A stretch of 64,000 nucleotides of DNA from an alpha proteobacterium HIMB59 (GCA_004321805.1 SGZV01000003.1:1-64000); one strand, 5' to 3'; positions 18,521-23,897 are shown, counted from the stretch's first letter. Program-made: numbers and translations. Notes: generated by a model from the sequence alone, not told the origin.

Positions 18521-19708
18521 GTGAAAAACGAATTTAATAGAATTGAACGATTGCCTCCATATATATTTGGAGAAATCAATAAACTTAAAGCTAAACTAAG
18601 AAAAGATGGTAAAGACATTATTGATTTCGGTATGGGTAACCCAGATATGCCAACACCTAAGCATATAAGAGAGAAATTAAAAGAAGTAACTGATAAACCT
18701 GGTACGGGTAGGTACTCTATGAGTAGGGGTGTACCTGGATTAAGAAAGGCTCAAGCTAAATATTATGAAAGAAGATTTGGTGTAAAATTAAATCCTGAAA
18801 ATGAAATAGTTGTTACACTTGGATCTAAGGAAGGTTTGGCAAATTTAGCACAGGCGATATCTTCTCCAGGAGATATTATTATTTCTCCTAATCCATCATA
18901 CCCAATTCACCCTTATGGTTTTATTATAGCTGGAGCATCCTTAAGACATTTACGAACAATGAGTGATGGTGTGTTTGATATTGAAAAGTATCTAAAAAGA
19001 TTGGACCGTTCTATAAGACATAGCTCACCTTCACCTGTTGCTATGATTGTGTCTTTTCCTTCTAATCCTACTGCTCAAGTAGTTGATTTAGATTTTTACA
19101 AAGAAATTATTAAGATAGCTTTAAAGTATAATATTTATGTACTATCTGATTTGGCTTATGCAGAAATATATTTCGATAAGAACCCTCCGCCTTCCATATT
19201 ACAAGTTAATAGAGCTAAACAAATAGCAGTTGAATTTACGTCAATGTCTAAAACTTATGCTATGGCTGGATGGAGAATTGGTTTTGCCGTAGGTAATAAA
19301 AAATTAATTGAGGCATTAACCAAAATTAAATCTTATCTTGATTATGGCGCATTTACTCCTGTACAAGTGGCGGCTGCAACTGCTTTGAACGGTCCACAGT
19401 CATGTGTATCAGAAATAAGAGCTACATATCAGAGCAGAAGAGATGTTTTAGTAGAATCTATGAGTCGTTCAGGTTGGGAGATACCTAAGCCTGAAGCTAG
19501 TATGTTTGCTTGGGCACCTATCCCTGAAAAATACAAGGACAAAGGCTCTCTTAAGTTTGCTAAAGATTTAATGACCAAAGCAGATGTAGCTGTCTCACCA
19601 GGAATAGCATTTGGAGAGTATGGAGAGGGATTTGTAAGAATAGGTTTAGTTGAAAATGAACAAAGAATTAGGCAGGCAGCTAAAAATATAAGGAATTTAA
19701 AACTATAA
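18521..19708 (+). CDS. Class I/II aminotransferase (AlaC / LL-diaminopimelate aminotransferase-like)
   Basis: FGMGNPDMPTP, YSMSRGVPGLRKA, SMSKTYAMAGWRIGFAVG; GTG start. Confidence 0.9.
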   Translation: MKNEFNRIERLPPYIFGEINKLKAKLRKDGKDIIDFGMGNPDMPTPKHIREKLKEVTDKPGTGRYSMSRGVPGLRKAQAKYYERRFGVKLNPENEIVVTLGSKEGLANLAQAISSPGDIIISPNPSYPIHPYGFIIAGASLRHLRTMSDGVFDIEKYLKRLDRSIRHSSPSPVAMIVSFPSNPTAQVVDLDFYKEIIKIALKYNIYVLSDLAYAEIYFDKNPPPSILQVNRAKQIAVEFTSMSKTYAMAGWRIGFAVGNKKLIEALTKIKSYLDYGAFTPVQVAAATALNGPQSCVSEIRATYQSRRDVLVESMSRSGWEIPKPEASMFAWAPIPEKYKDKGSLKFAKDLMTKADVAVSPGIAFGEYGEGFVRIGLVENEQRIRQAAKNIRNLKL

Positions 19709-19778: not shown

Positions 19779-20825
19779 ATGTTAAACACAAAAAAAATAG
19801 GATCTGTACTTAAAAATATTGAAAACATTGATGTTTTAAGTATCTCTGATGAAATCAATTGTCAGCAAGGTCAGTTAATTGCTGTAAAAGTGATTTCAGT
19901 AAATCCTAACTATAATAAATTAGAGCTAGTGTCAGGAAGAATTACTGAATTAACAGAGGGTGACATTATCATAGGTGCGTTGGGAAATAGAATTGCATCA
20001 TCAGGAATGACCGGATCAGTCCCAGAAGAACTAAATAAACACGATAAAATTCACATATTAAATCTTGGGGGTGTTATAGGATTATGCAAAGATTTTAATA
20101 TTCTTTTAGGGCCTGCAACAGAATGTGAAGTGCTTGGATCAATTATAGATAATTCTAACAAACAATTGAATCTTCAAGATTTTTCAAAAATTAAAAATAA
20201 TAAAAATATCAGTCAAGTACCAGCCATTGCTGTAATTGGCACTGGAATTGACTCAGGAAAAACTACCGTTACATCATTTATTATAAAAACACTCAGCAAA
20301 TATTTTGAAAAGATTAATGCATGCAAACTGGCTGGAACCGCATCGCAAAAAGACCTTTACTCTTATGAGGATAATGGAGCGTTTAAAACATCTGATTTTG
20401 TAGATTATGGCCTTCCAAGTACATGCATGACGGATAAGTCTGTTATTCAAGAGTGTTCATCTTCTATCATTAATCATATATCAGGAGACGCAGATATTTT
20501 GCTAATGGAGCTAGGAGATGGATATCATGGTGATTATGGAACTAAAGAGATAATTCAAAATAAAGATATTACCAATTCAATTGAAGTTATCATTATATGC
20601 GCATACGATATTTCAGGAGCAGTTAATATCATTGAAAATTTAAAATCTAATAACTTAGAAAATAAACTCCTTATTATTAGTGGCCCTGTCACTAATAATG
20701 TTTCTGCTTTCAAACAATCTTTTGAAAAATTTACTTTAGATAATTCAGATTATTTAAATATTTATAATTCTTCTAACCATGTAAATGTTTTTGCAAAGAT
20801 TATTAATAGGATTAATAATGATTAG
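19779..20825 (+). CDS. P-loop NTPase-fold protein of unknown function (DUF1611/DgcN- or MobB/BioD-like C-terminal domain)
   Basis: N-terminal beta-rich domain then VIGTGIDSGKTTVTSFIIKTL (Walker A-like), ACKLAGTASQKDLYSYEDNGAFKTSDFVDYGLPSTCM, DILLMELGDGYHGDYGT. Confidence 0.55.
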   Translation: MLNTKKIGSVLKNIENIDVLSISDEINCQQGQLIAVKVISVNPNYNKLELVSGRITELTEGDIIIGALGNRIASSGMTGSVPEELNKHDKIHILNLGGVIGLCKDFNILLGPATECEVLGSIIDNSNKQLNLQDFSKIKNNKNISQVPAIAVIGTGIDSGKTTVTSFIIKTLSKYFEKINACKLAGTASQKDLYSYEDNGAFKTSDFVDYGLPSTCMTDKSVIQECSSSIINHISGDADILLMELGDGYHGDYGTKEIIQNKDITNSIEVIIICAYDISGAVNIIENLKSNNLENKLLIISGPVTNNVSAFKQSFEKFTLDNSDYLNIYNSSNHVNVFAKIINRINND

Positions 20826-21810
20826 AACTGGAATTATAGGCGCAAACGGCTTTTTAGGGTTAGAACTACTTAGAATTTTATCAATTCATCCTAAAGTTGA
20901 AATTTCAAAAATTTTAAAAAGAGAAAATGAGATAGAAGATGAGTTTACTCATCTCTCTTCACTAAATTTTAATGAAATTCAAACCTCAAATTTAGATGAT
21001 TTTAAAGAACTAGATTGTGTTTTTTTATCTTTACCACATGGTTCAGCTCATGAATATGTAAAAGAATTATTAAACAAAGTAAAAATTATTGATTTAAGTT
21101 CTGATTTTAGAATTAGAGATGCTAATTCATATGAATCCTATTACAAAACTTCTTTTGATCCTAGTATTCAATCAAGTTTTACATATGGATTTATTGAGCC
21201 CTCCTTAAATGAAATTAAAAAATCATCTAATGTTGCAAATCCAGGGTGTTTTGCACTGGCTAGTCAATTAGCTATTCTTCCTTTCCATTCGCTTATCGAC
21301 AAGATTTCTATAACTGCAATTACAGGCTCTAGTGGTGGTGGTAAATTACCATCTTTAAAAAATCATCATTCCACTCGTTCAAAAGATATTTTCTCTTACA
21401 ATATCAATAAGCACAGACACTTAGCTGAAATTTTTCAATCCTTTCCAAATCTCAGTGACAAATTATCCTTTGTTCCTTTATCTGGACCATTTACTAGAGG
21501 CATTTATCTAACTGCTCACATACAGACATCTGAACAAATTAATTCCAATTCAATTAATAGTTTAATTAAAAAAACCTTTATAAATATGCCTTTTGTTAGA
21601 TTTCAACAACAGGCAAAGCTTTCTAATGTTGTTGGCTCTAACTATTGTGATCTCTCAGTGTCTATTAAGGATGAGAATAGTTTTGTAGTTGAGACTTGCT
21701 TAGATAATTTAATTAAAGGAGCATCCGGTAATGCAGTTGAGTGTATGAACTTAATGTTTTCAGAAGATCAATCACTTGGTCTAAAAGAAATGTTACCTCT
21801 ATATCTATGA
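20818..21810 (+). CDS. N-acetyl-gamma-glutamyl-phosphate reductase-like (ArgC/LysY family)
   Basis: GIIGANGFLGLELLRIL, catalytic-Cys motif ANPGCFALASQLAI, TGSSGGGKLPSLKNHHSTRS...HRHLAEI; 8-nt overlap with the preceding gene. Confidence 0.85.
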   Translation: MIRTGIIGANGFLGLELLRILSIHPKVEISKILKRENEIEDEFTHLSSLNFNEIQTSNLDDFKELDCVFLSLPHGSAHEYVKELLNKVKIIDLSSDFRIRDANSYESYYKTSFDPSIQSSFTYGFIEPSLNEIKKSSNVANPGCFALASQLAILPFHSLIDKISITAITGSSGGGKLPSLKNHHSTRSKDIFSYNINKHRHLAEIFQSFPNLSDKLSFVPLSGPFTRGIYLTAHIQTSEQINSNSINSLIKKTFINMPFVRFQQQAKLSNVVGSNYCDLSVSIKDENSFVVETCLDNLIKGASGNAVECMNLMFSEDQSLGLKEMLPLYL

Positions 21811-22658
21811 GCAAAACTCAATCTTTTTATCAGTCAATCCTTCAAAATTCGACATTAGTCGTCAAAGTTAGCGGTAAAATATGTGATAACCAAGAAAATA
21901 TAGAAAATGTTATCAGTGATATAAAAGAACTTTTATCAACTATTTCAAAATTAAAAGTCGTTTTAGTTTTTGGTTTTGGCAGACAATTAGATAATTACAT
22001 GAAAAATGTTCATAATCTTGAACCTAAAAAGATTAATGGAAGAAGAATTACTTCAGGCAATGATATTGAAGCAGCTAAAAAAATTTCAGGTCAAATATTA
22101 ATTGATATTTTTAGTTTAAGTTCAAGATATAACATAAGAAATTTTCCAATACCAATATCCAAAAAAGACTTTATATCAGCCAAAAGAAGAGAAGTTATTG
22201 ATGGAGTAGACTATGGTCAAGTGGGTGATGTTGTTTCTGTAGATGCACTTGAAATCCAAAAGTTATTTAAAGAACATGATATGATTATAATGCCAAGTTT
22301 AGTTTTAGATAAAAACACAGCTGAAGTATTAAATGTTAATGCAGATACTATTGCTACAGAATTAGCTATCAACTTGTCAGCAAGTAAATTAATTTTTATT
22401 TCTGATGTCCCATATATTAAAGATCTACAAGGTGAGAGAATATCTGCCGTTGATGAAAATGTAGCAAAAAAATTATTTGATGAAAAAATAATCACAAATG
22501 GAATGGTAGTAAAAGTTGAAAATTCTCTAAAAGCTCTTAATCAAGGGGTACAAAAAATTCATATTATAAGTGGTGAAATTAAAAATGCCTTACTCACAGA
22601 GTTGGAAACAGAAGAGGGCATTGGTACTGTGTTTCAAAAACAATCCTTAGATTATTAA
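21807..22658 (+). CDS. Amino acid kinase family protein, acetylglutamate kinase-like (ArgB-like)
   Basis: LVVKVSGKI, VLVFGFGRQLDNYM, INGRRITSGNDIEA, VDYGQVGDVVSVDA, NVNADTIATELAINLSASKLIFISDV; ATGA overlap with the ArgC-like gene. Confidence 0.78.
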   Translation: MSKTQSFYQSILQNSTLVVKVSGKICDNQENIENVISDIKELLSTISKLKVVLVFGFGRQLDNYMKNVHNLEPKKINGRRITSGNDIEAAKKISGQILIDIFSLSSRYNIRNFPIPISKKDFISAKRREVIDGVDYGQVGDVVSVDALEIQKLFKEHDMIIMPSLVLDKNTAEVLNVNADTIATELAINLSASKLIFISDVPYIKDLQGERISAVDENVAKKLFDEKIITNGMVVKVENSLKALNQGVQKIHIISGEIKNALLTELETEEGIGTVFQKQSLDY

Positions 22659-22730
22659 TTTATTAAAATATCATCTAAATTTGATATTATAACTTAATGG
22701 CTCTGGATCCACTGTTTATATAAAAAACGA

Positions 22731-23897
22731 TTAAATCTTAATAGTATTTAAGCAGTCTGAAATAATTTTTGCACCTTTTTTAAGCTCTTCAGCTTGTATA
22801 ATCAGTGGTGGAGTAATTCTTATGATATTTCCTTTAACAAGCGTAGTAACTAGACCATTTTTGGATGTTTCTTTATAGACTTTTAATGCTGTTATATCAT
22901 TTTTAAACTCAATACCTGCCATAAGACCTTTTATCCTAACTTCTTTTATAACTTCGTTGTCAGCATTAAGTTTTTTTAAAAGTTTTTCTAATAATAGACC
23001 TTTTGATTTAACGTTATTTAAAAAACCAACTTTATTAATAGTTTTGAGTACATTAAAGGCAACCCTTGTTTGTAACATTCCCCCACCAAATGTTGAGCCA
23101 TGAAAGCCTATAGAAATGTTCTTTGCTATTTTTTTTTTCACAATTGTAGCTCCAATGGGTATACCTGAACCTAATCCTTTGGCAGATGTAATAATATCTG
23201 GAGATACACCATAATGTTTATAAGCAAAAACTTTCCCTGTTCTTCCTATACCACCTTGTATTTCATCAGCTATTAATAAAATTTTTCTTTTTTTGCAAAT
23301 ATCTTTTATTGTTTTAGCAAAATCTCTACTGCAAATATTTATTCCTCCATCACCTTGAATAAATTCAATAATAATTGCCAGTGTTTTTTTATTGATTAAT
23401 TGTTTTAAATTTTTACTGTCATTAAATTTACAAAACTTCACTTTGCCTGGTACTGGACCAATATCAGTTTTATAAGCTTTATTACTTCCCACAGATAAAG
23501 CACCGATTGTTCTCCCATGAAAAGAAGAAGTCATTGCAATAATTTCATCTCTTCCTTTACTACTTCCAAAATTACGAGCAATTTTTAATGCAGCTTCTAT
23601 GCTCTCTGCACCAGAATTTGAAAAAAAAACATCACCTTTGTTACTTTCTTTTGAGAGCAATTGAGATAATTTGTTTTTATATAAATGTATTTGCGATCCT
23701 GAGAGGTGAGTGATACCTGTTTTTAATTGCTCTTGAATTGTTTTTTTAACAACAGCGTGGTTATAACCTAATGAATTGACAGCCACACCAGCAGAAAAAT
23801 CTAATAATTTTTTATTGTCTGCAGTGTATAAATAAGATCCATTTCCTTTGACTATTTCAAAGTTACTAAAGTTATAGGTTTTTAATAAATTATTCAT
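22731..23897 (-). CDS. Class III aminotransferase, acetylornithine aminotransferase-like (ArgD-like)
   Basis: FFSNSGAESIEAALKIAR, SSFHGRTIGALS, LIADEIQGGIGRTG, TSAKGLGSGIPIGA, HGSTFGGG. Confidence 0.88.
   Translation of the reverse strand: MNNLLKTYNFSNFEIVKGNGSYLYTADNKKLLDFSAGVAVNSLGYNHAVVKKTIQEQLKTGITHLSGSQIHLYKNKLSQLLSKESNKGDVFFSNSGAESIEAALKIARNFGSSKGRDEIIAMTSSFHGRTIGALSVGSNKAYKTDIGPVPGKVKFCKFNDSKNLKQLINKKTLAIIIEFIQGDGGINICSRDFAKTIKDICKKRKILLIADEIQGGIGRTGKVFAYKHYGVSPDIITSAKGLGSGIPIGATIVKKKIAKNISIGFHGSTFGGGMLQTRVAFNVLKTINKVGFLNNVKSKGLLLEKLLKKLNADNEVIKEVRIKGLMAGIEFKNDITALKVYKETSKNGLVTTLVKGNIIRITPPLIIQAEELKKGAKIISDCLNTIKI

Follow-up and report, generated by a model that had tools for sequence, protein, structure and literature searches.

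A BioD-like P-loop protein as the probable N-acyl-glutamate synthase of an alphaproteobacterial arginine gene cluster

Arginine synthesis begins with a textbook step, which evolution has reinvented on several occasions. In the part of PMC4490483 available to us, the enzymes of this step, N-acetylglutamate synthases (NAGS), are typed as ArgA, NAGS/K, ArgJ, S-NAGS, O-NAGS, H-NAGS and C-NAGS, with no P-loop type among them. Clusters of the LysW type (LysX, LysZ, LysY, LysJ) have in common with the genes described here the kinase-reductase-transaminase logic and an N-protected substrate. Here we analyse a cluster at positions 19,779 to 23,897 of a 64,000-nucleotide stretch of DNA from the alpha proteobacterium HIMB59 (GCA_004321805.1, SGZV01000003.1:1-64000), which as a whole we call the window, where genes for ArgC-, ArgB- and ArgD-like proteins are found together with a gene for a P-loop protein. 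We propose that in the ornithine half of arginine biosynthesis ArgA/ArgJ is replaced by this unrelated protein, which probably makes the N-acyl- (probably N-acetyl-) glutamate used by ArgB.

Open reading frame (ORF) calling on the window revealed three genes on the plus strand, overlapping by 8 nt (P-loop gene and argC) and by 4 nt (argC and argB, ATGA), which converge with an argD-type gene. The features are as follows:

19779-20825, plus strand: P-loop protein, 348 aa, proposed N-acyl-glutamate synthase (ORF; AlphaFold2 (AF2) model and Foldseek; invariant residues)
20818-21810, plus strand: argC, N-acetyl-gamma-glutamyl-phosphate reductase (TIGR01850 over the equivalog cut-off; the only one in the genome)
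21807-22658, plus strand: argB-type N-acetylglutamate kinase (NAGK), short, without a GNAT domain (AA_kinase 93.7 bits; NAGK residues)
22731-23897, minus strand: argD-type aminotransferase (TIGR00707 395.6 bits; Aminotran_3 342 bits)
18521-19708, upstream of the triplet: LL-DAP/AlaC-type aminotransferase gene (NF006604 677 bits, over the cut-off)

The positions, the convergence, both overlaps and the upstream AlaC/DapL-like aminotransferase agree with a prediction made earlier for this DNA (the original prediction), as does the lack of any argA, argJ or LysW gene adjoining the cluster. All four proteins had also been described as diverged, which holds for three of them. No Pfam or NCBIfam model scores the P-loop protein above its threshold (AAA_26 and CbiA being the best weak matches), the ArgB-like protein does not reach the TIGR00761 cut-off (125.4 vs 151.3 bits), and the ArgD-like protein narrowly misses both TIGR00707, its best-scoring family (395.6 vs 410.05 bits), and NF002325 (370.4 vs 372 bits). 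ArgC, however, is a normal equivalog member, passing TIGR01850 with 285 bits against a cut-off of 233.6. The position of the NF006604 gene upstream of the cluster is conserved in the genus, and the arginine route does not need it.

Contig C22, which carries the window, belongs to an assembly of 1.07 Mb that is 80% complete, and we used as a complete reference a genome of the same genus (G029; single contig of 1,410,127 bases, 99% complete), in which argD has the same position and orientation as in the window. The close relatives are marine alphaproteobacterial single-cell genomes and metagenome-assembled genomes. ArgJ was found in none of the 37 genomes of the genus and in 21 of the 23 genomes of its sister family; for the P-loop gene the counts are 29/37 and 0/23, respectively. 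Within the order the P-loop gene and ArgJ are thus mutually exclusive (Fisher p 6e-9, which serves as a guide only, since the genomes are related). The P-loop gene is also lost together with ArgB: the eight members of the genus that lack the P-loop gene, among them one at 94% completeness (G017), all lack ArgB as well, and ArgB is found in 27 of the 29 carriers, the P-loop gene lying near a contig end in the other two. The eight genomes with neither gene (G017, G001, G002, G019, G026, G032, G035 and G036), several of which are quite incomplete, are on this gene content possible arginine auxotrophs. In G029 there is no ArgA-type match except for the cluster's own kinase, and no ArgE was found; the only M20 protein detected is DapE (420 bits, over the cut-off), encoded next to dapD. 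Since neither ArgJ, nor an ArgA-type protein, nor ArgE was found, neither acylation nor deacylation has a textbook enzyme in G029.

A similar association exists in f137, an alphaproteobacterial family unrelated to the genus. Among its 104 genomes, 34 carry an arg-type P-loop gene, with argC present in all 34 (p 5e-15) and ArgJ in none. In the loci fetched from this family the operon order is P-loop-argC-argB-argD-argF, often followed by argG, and the ArgB of one relative (L177) reaches 154.4 bits with TIGR00761. A third lineage (G782) shows the order argR - P-loop - argC - argB. A script scan identified argC directly downstream at 49 of 54 P-loop loci; of the five misses, two (L025, L210) break off inside the P-loop gene or shortly behind it and three (L007, L002, L003) do have argC. 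As the P-loop gene and argC stay neighbours across the whole genus and also in another family, the arrangement is not due to chance. In phylogenetic trees, ArgC and ArgB of the genus join those of f137 (support 82/83 and 93/86), apart from the ArgJ-using sister family and from the sampled canonical alphaproteobacterial sequences. Because this support is moderate, we regard the triplet as a module that the two groups have in common and claim no direction of transfer. The original prediction would have been refuted by argJ or argA elsewhere, together with ArgC and ArgB branching inside canonical alphaproteobacterial clades and a P-loop gene not conserved beside them. The searches for ArgJ in the genus and for ArgA-type proteins in G029 found none, ArgC and ArgB branch outside the ArgJ-using sister clade and the sampled canonical sequences, and the P-loop gene stays beside argC-argB in both the genus and f137.

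Which diamino acid does the cluster make? In the window's genome, profile searches found a single argC over the cut-off and, among three amino-acid kinases, just one that is ArgB-like, the cluster gene itself, so the second canonical argC/argB set that had to be considered does not appear in this assembly. NAGK residues have either catalytic or N-acetylglutamate (NAG)-binding roles, and the ArgB-like protein keeps K8, G11, G45, R66, N158, D162 and K217 of the E. coli enzyme, with G44 replaced by F. Although its highest score among the models comes from a NAGS model, K8, D162 and K217 are missing from the kinase-like domain of E. coli NAGS, and their retention here points to an active-type kinase and rules out a disabled NAGS kinase domain. 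G029 carries OTC-type (ornithine transcarbamylase) ArgF, ArgG, ArgH and CarAB, and the operons of relatives run on into argF, argG and argH. Passage through N-acetylornithine carbamoyltransferase was rejected, as the G029 transcarbamylase scores 276 bits as OTC and 102 bits as that enzyme. Given the sole argC/argB set, the NAGK residues and the continuation of relatives' operons into argF/argG/argH, the cluster is, judged by its genes, the genome's only ornithine/arginine module. Of the ornithine, lysine or diaminobutyrate-type pathways originally envisaged, it is the first that stands.

Synthesis of lysine or diaminobutyrate, or use of a LysW-like carrier, is highly improbable. What could be said for it is that ArgB falls under the TIGR00761 cut-off and ArgD just under that of TIGR00707. 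Against this, there is no second argC or argB, the NAG-binding R66 and N158 are retained, argF, argG and argH follow in relatives' operons, and argR adjoins the triplet in G782. Moreover, LysW-kinase models give at most 66 bits against a cut-off of 194, G029 has a separate dapD-dapE lysine route, and the E[DE]WGE tail of LysW-type carriers (EDWGE) is not found in any ORF of at least 50 aa in G029. On the kinase scores, the missing tail and the separate lysine route we rejected the LysW-type pathway. Hence, of the earlier suggestion that the P-loop protein supplies an N-acyl or a carrier step, the carrier is not borne out, while for the N-acyl step the protein is the best candidate, as no ArgJ or ArgA was found and the adjacency is conserved.

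The P-loop protein has no GNAT (NAT) or ArgJ domain match in Pfam or NCBIfam. An AF2 model built with 13 close sequences was poor (mean predicted local distance difference test, pLDDT, 65.8), and we used instead a model built with 48 relatives (pLDDT 91.3). It consists of a beta-rich, all-beta N-terminal domain (residues about 1-135) and a C-terminal SIMIBI-type P-loop domain (about 148-348) resembling BioD. The closest solved folds identified by Foldseek are HypB and dethiobiotin synthetase (BioD; E about 4e-6, TM-score, i.e. template modelling score, 0.58 on the target), and a search of a viral fold library with the model gave nothing useful. Residues G160-K161-T162, K183, D192 and E244 are invariant across the 48 relatives. 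In the hhalign alignment to E. coli BioD (E = 8e-4, with a probability of only 25%) Walker A K15, K37, the region of D54 and E115 correspond to K161, K183, D192 and E244. K15, K37 and E115 have catalytic roles in BioD. On the modelled structure, we thus place the protein among the BioD-like (SIMIBI) P-loop proteins; its beta-rich N-terminal part forms a domain of its own.

We propose that the P-loop protein would join glutamate and an acyl donor into N-acyl- (probably N-acetyl-) glutamate, on which ArgB, ArgC and ArgD would then act. Removal of the acyl group would follow, and ArgF, ArgG and ArgH would complete arginine. Substrate, donor and reaction are those that we infer for the protein from its context and fold. 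Since the active site is of the BioD type (Walker A, K183, D192, E244), the amide would be made with ATP, from an acyl phosphate or from acid and amine; by this analogy the fold suggests an ATP-dependent amide formation, while the reaction may instead depend on acetyl-CoA. A more specific and rather doubtful version is that we are dealing with a new, BioD-type class of N-acyl-glutamate synthase, in which ATP drives the joining of a small acid (acetate, formate or CO2) to the glutamate amino group independently of acetyl-CoA. If this were true and the group were CO2, the resulting carbamate would be shed with no need for a deacylase, and the failure to find one in G029 would be explained.

Several observations weigh against the assignment of N-acyl-glutamate synthesis to the P-loop protein. 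The structurally closest folds, BioD and HypB, are not known for N-acetylation. In f137, 17 genomes have argC with neither the P-loop gene nor ArgJ, so that this family has at least one other solution, and at two of 13 inspected f137 loci without the P-loop gene a GNAT-like gene is found beside or near argC. These two genes, directly upstream of argC (L287:7956-8612) and upstream beyond a divergent kinase gene (L292:9491-10012), may be alternative NAGSs of f137. Finally, Pfam models detect two GNATs in G029 and two in the window's genome; of those in G029 one is RimI-like and the other is small (113996-114484), has no family over the cut-off and could be a short NAGS. A NAGS of this kind, similar to S-NAGS or O-NAGS, would leave to the P-loop protein the role of an accessory ATPase that regulates or assembles an ArgB/ArgC complex. 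Short GNAT-type NAGSs do exist, according to the part of PMC4490483 that we draw on, and the GNAT-like genes of f137 point in the same direction. However, the small GNAT of G029 resembles RimI and AAC(6') models, sits next to a cysE-like gene and is far from the arg genes, and an accessory role would give no reason for ArgJ to be missing, within the order, precisely where the P-loop gene occurs. We consider this arrangement unlikely.

The lack of ArgE in G029 is a further difficulty, and it leads to one of three situations: either DapE doubles as a deacetylase, or the P-loop protein has two functions, or a deacylase escaped detection. The bifunctional case, in which the P-loop protein substitutes fully for ArgJ by taking the acyl group off N-acylornithine and returning it to glutamate, and thereby performs steps one and five, would account for a genome with neither ArgJ nor ArgE, whose sole M20 protein scores as DapE beside dapD, and for the presence of ArgJ in the sister family, which has no P-loop gene. 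We nevertheless find it quite improbable, because DapE could accept acetylornithine too, and because at many f137 loci an M20 amidohydrolase gene (TIGR01891, with a fair DoeB2 score) adjoins the P-loop or argC gene, often just upstream, as would be expected if deacylation were a separate activity.

Relatives of the P-loop protein are also found away from arg genes, and M20 deacylase genes lie near them in three such contexts, two in Alphaproteobacteria (L188, L350) and one on a Priestia plasmid. Deacylases as neighbours would suit a family whose members protect amines with N-acyl groups, though the evidence is circumstantial. The plasmid locus (L354; NZ_CP085446.1, Priestia megaterium KF18, 84738-93625) has the relative in a biosynthetic-type cluster together with ornithine carbamoyltransferase, two ATP-grasp proteins, thiamine-pyrophosphate enzyme subunits, an M20 peptidase, an LLM oxidoreductase and a PEP-mutase-family gene, and its gene content indicates that it is probably a phosphonate natural-product cluster. 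In many alphaproteobacteria (L181, L182, L190, L191, L352, L353 and others) an ABC transporter gene directly follows a relative that is 25-30% identical; this cassette is conserved, and an alpha/beta hydrolase and a sensor kinase are often present. An isoaspartyl-peptidase/asparaginase-like gene adjoins relatives at L186:3043-5018 and L187:7328-9316.

If the P-loop protein does make N-acyl-glutamate, it would represent a further enzyme type for the first step of arginine synthesis and, as far as our search went, the first to be built on a BioD-like P-loop fold. A streamlined marine genus with tiny genomes, in which no ArgA or ArgJ was found, would thereby gain its missing first step, and genome-based calls of arginine auxotrophy would have to be corrected. 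A function would also be gained for a widespread P-loop family that occurs near deacylases and in a phosphonate-type cluster. Our search for an earlier report of such an enzyme (P-loop NAGS, DgcN, HIMB59 arginine genes), outside which most subscription journals fell, found none, and the protein would probably make the starting compound by a new route.

How does the protein compare with described systems? From LysW-type clusters the locus differs in having neither a LysW tail nor a LysX-type gene, with a kinase far under the LysZ cut-offs. DgcN, which plasmid annotation links to DUF1611, is similar in length (~340 aa), has a C-terminal P-loop domain and N-acetylates glutamate. Weak Pfam matches and 'DUF1611' labels on plasmid relatives made membership of this family a candidate. 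However, the window protein has no match to PF07755 (its relatives reach at most 21 bits, gathering threshold 25), and profile comparison with six DgcN/DUF1611 proteins aligned 34 columns at Walker A only, with a probability of 0.8%. Only retrieved real proteins entered this comparison; a 127-residue DUF1611 consensus served as the query that found them. The solved DUF1611 members 7xrj, 2g0t and 2obn are not among the top 50 folds, and there is no dgcA partner at the P-loop gene. Membership was rejected on the Walker-A-only match and the fold search, and since the profile comparison failed beyond Walker A, DgcN is a mere precedent for glutamate acetylation by a P-loop protein; the corresponding activity, D-glutamate N-acetyltransferase, is EC 2.3.1.312 (PMC11747546). 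Compared with BioD, the P-loop protein has the additional ~135-residue beta-rich N-terminal domain and arg instead of bio neighbours, falls under the AAA_26 cut-off and has no match to TIGR00347, with which the Priestia relative scores 26 bits against a cut-off of 83. From the NAGS types named in the consulted part of PMC4490483 it is set apart by the lack of a GNAT (NAT) domain and of the ArgJ fold, while it shares with them the step that it would catalyse and its placement in arg operons.

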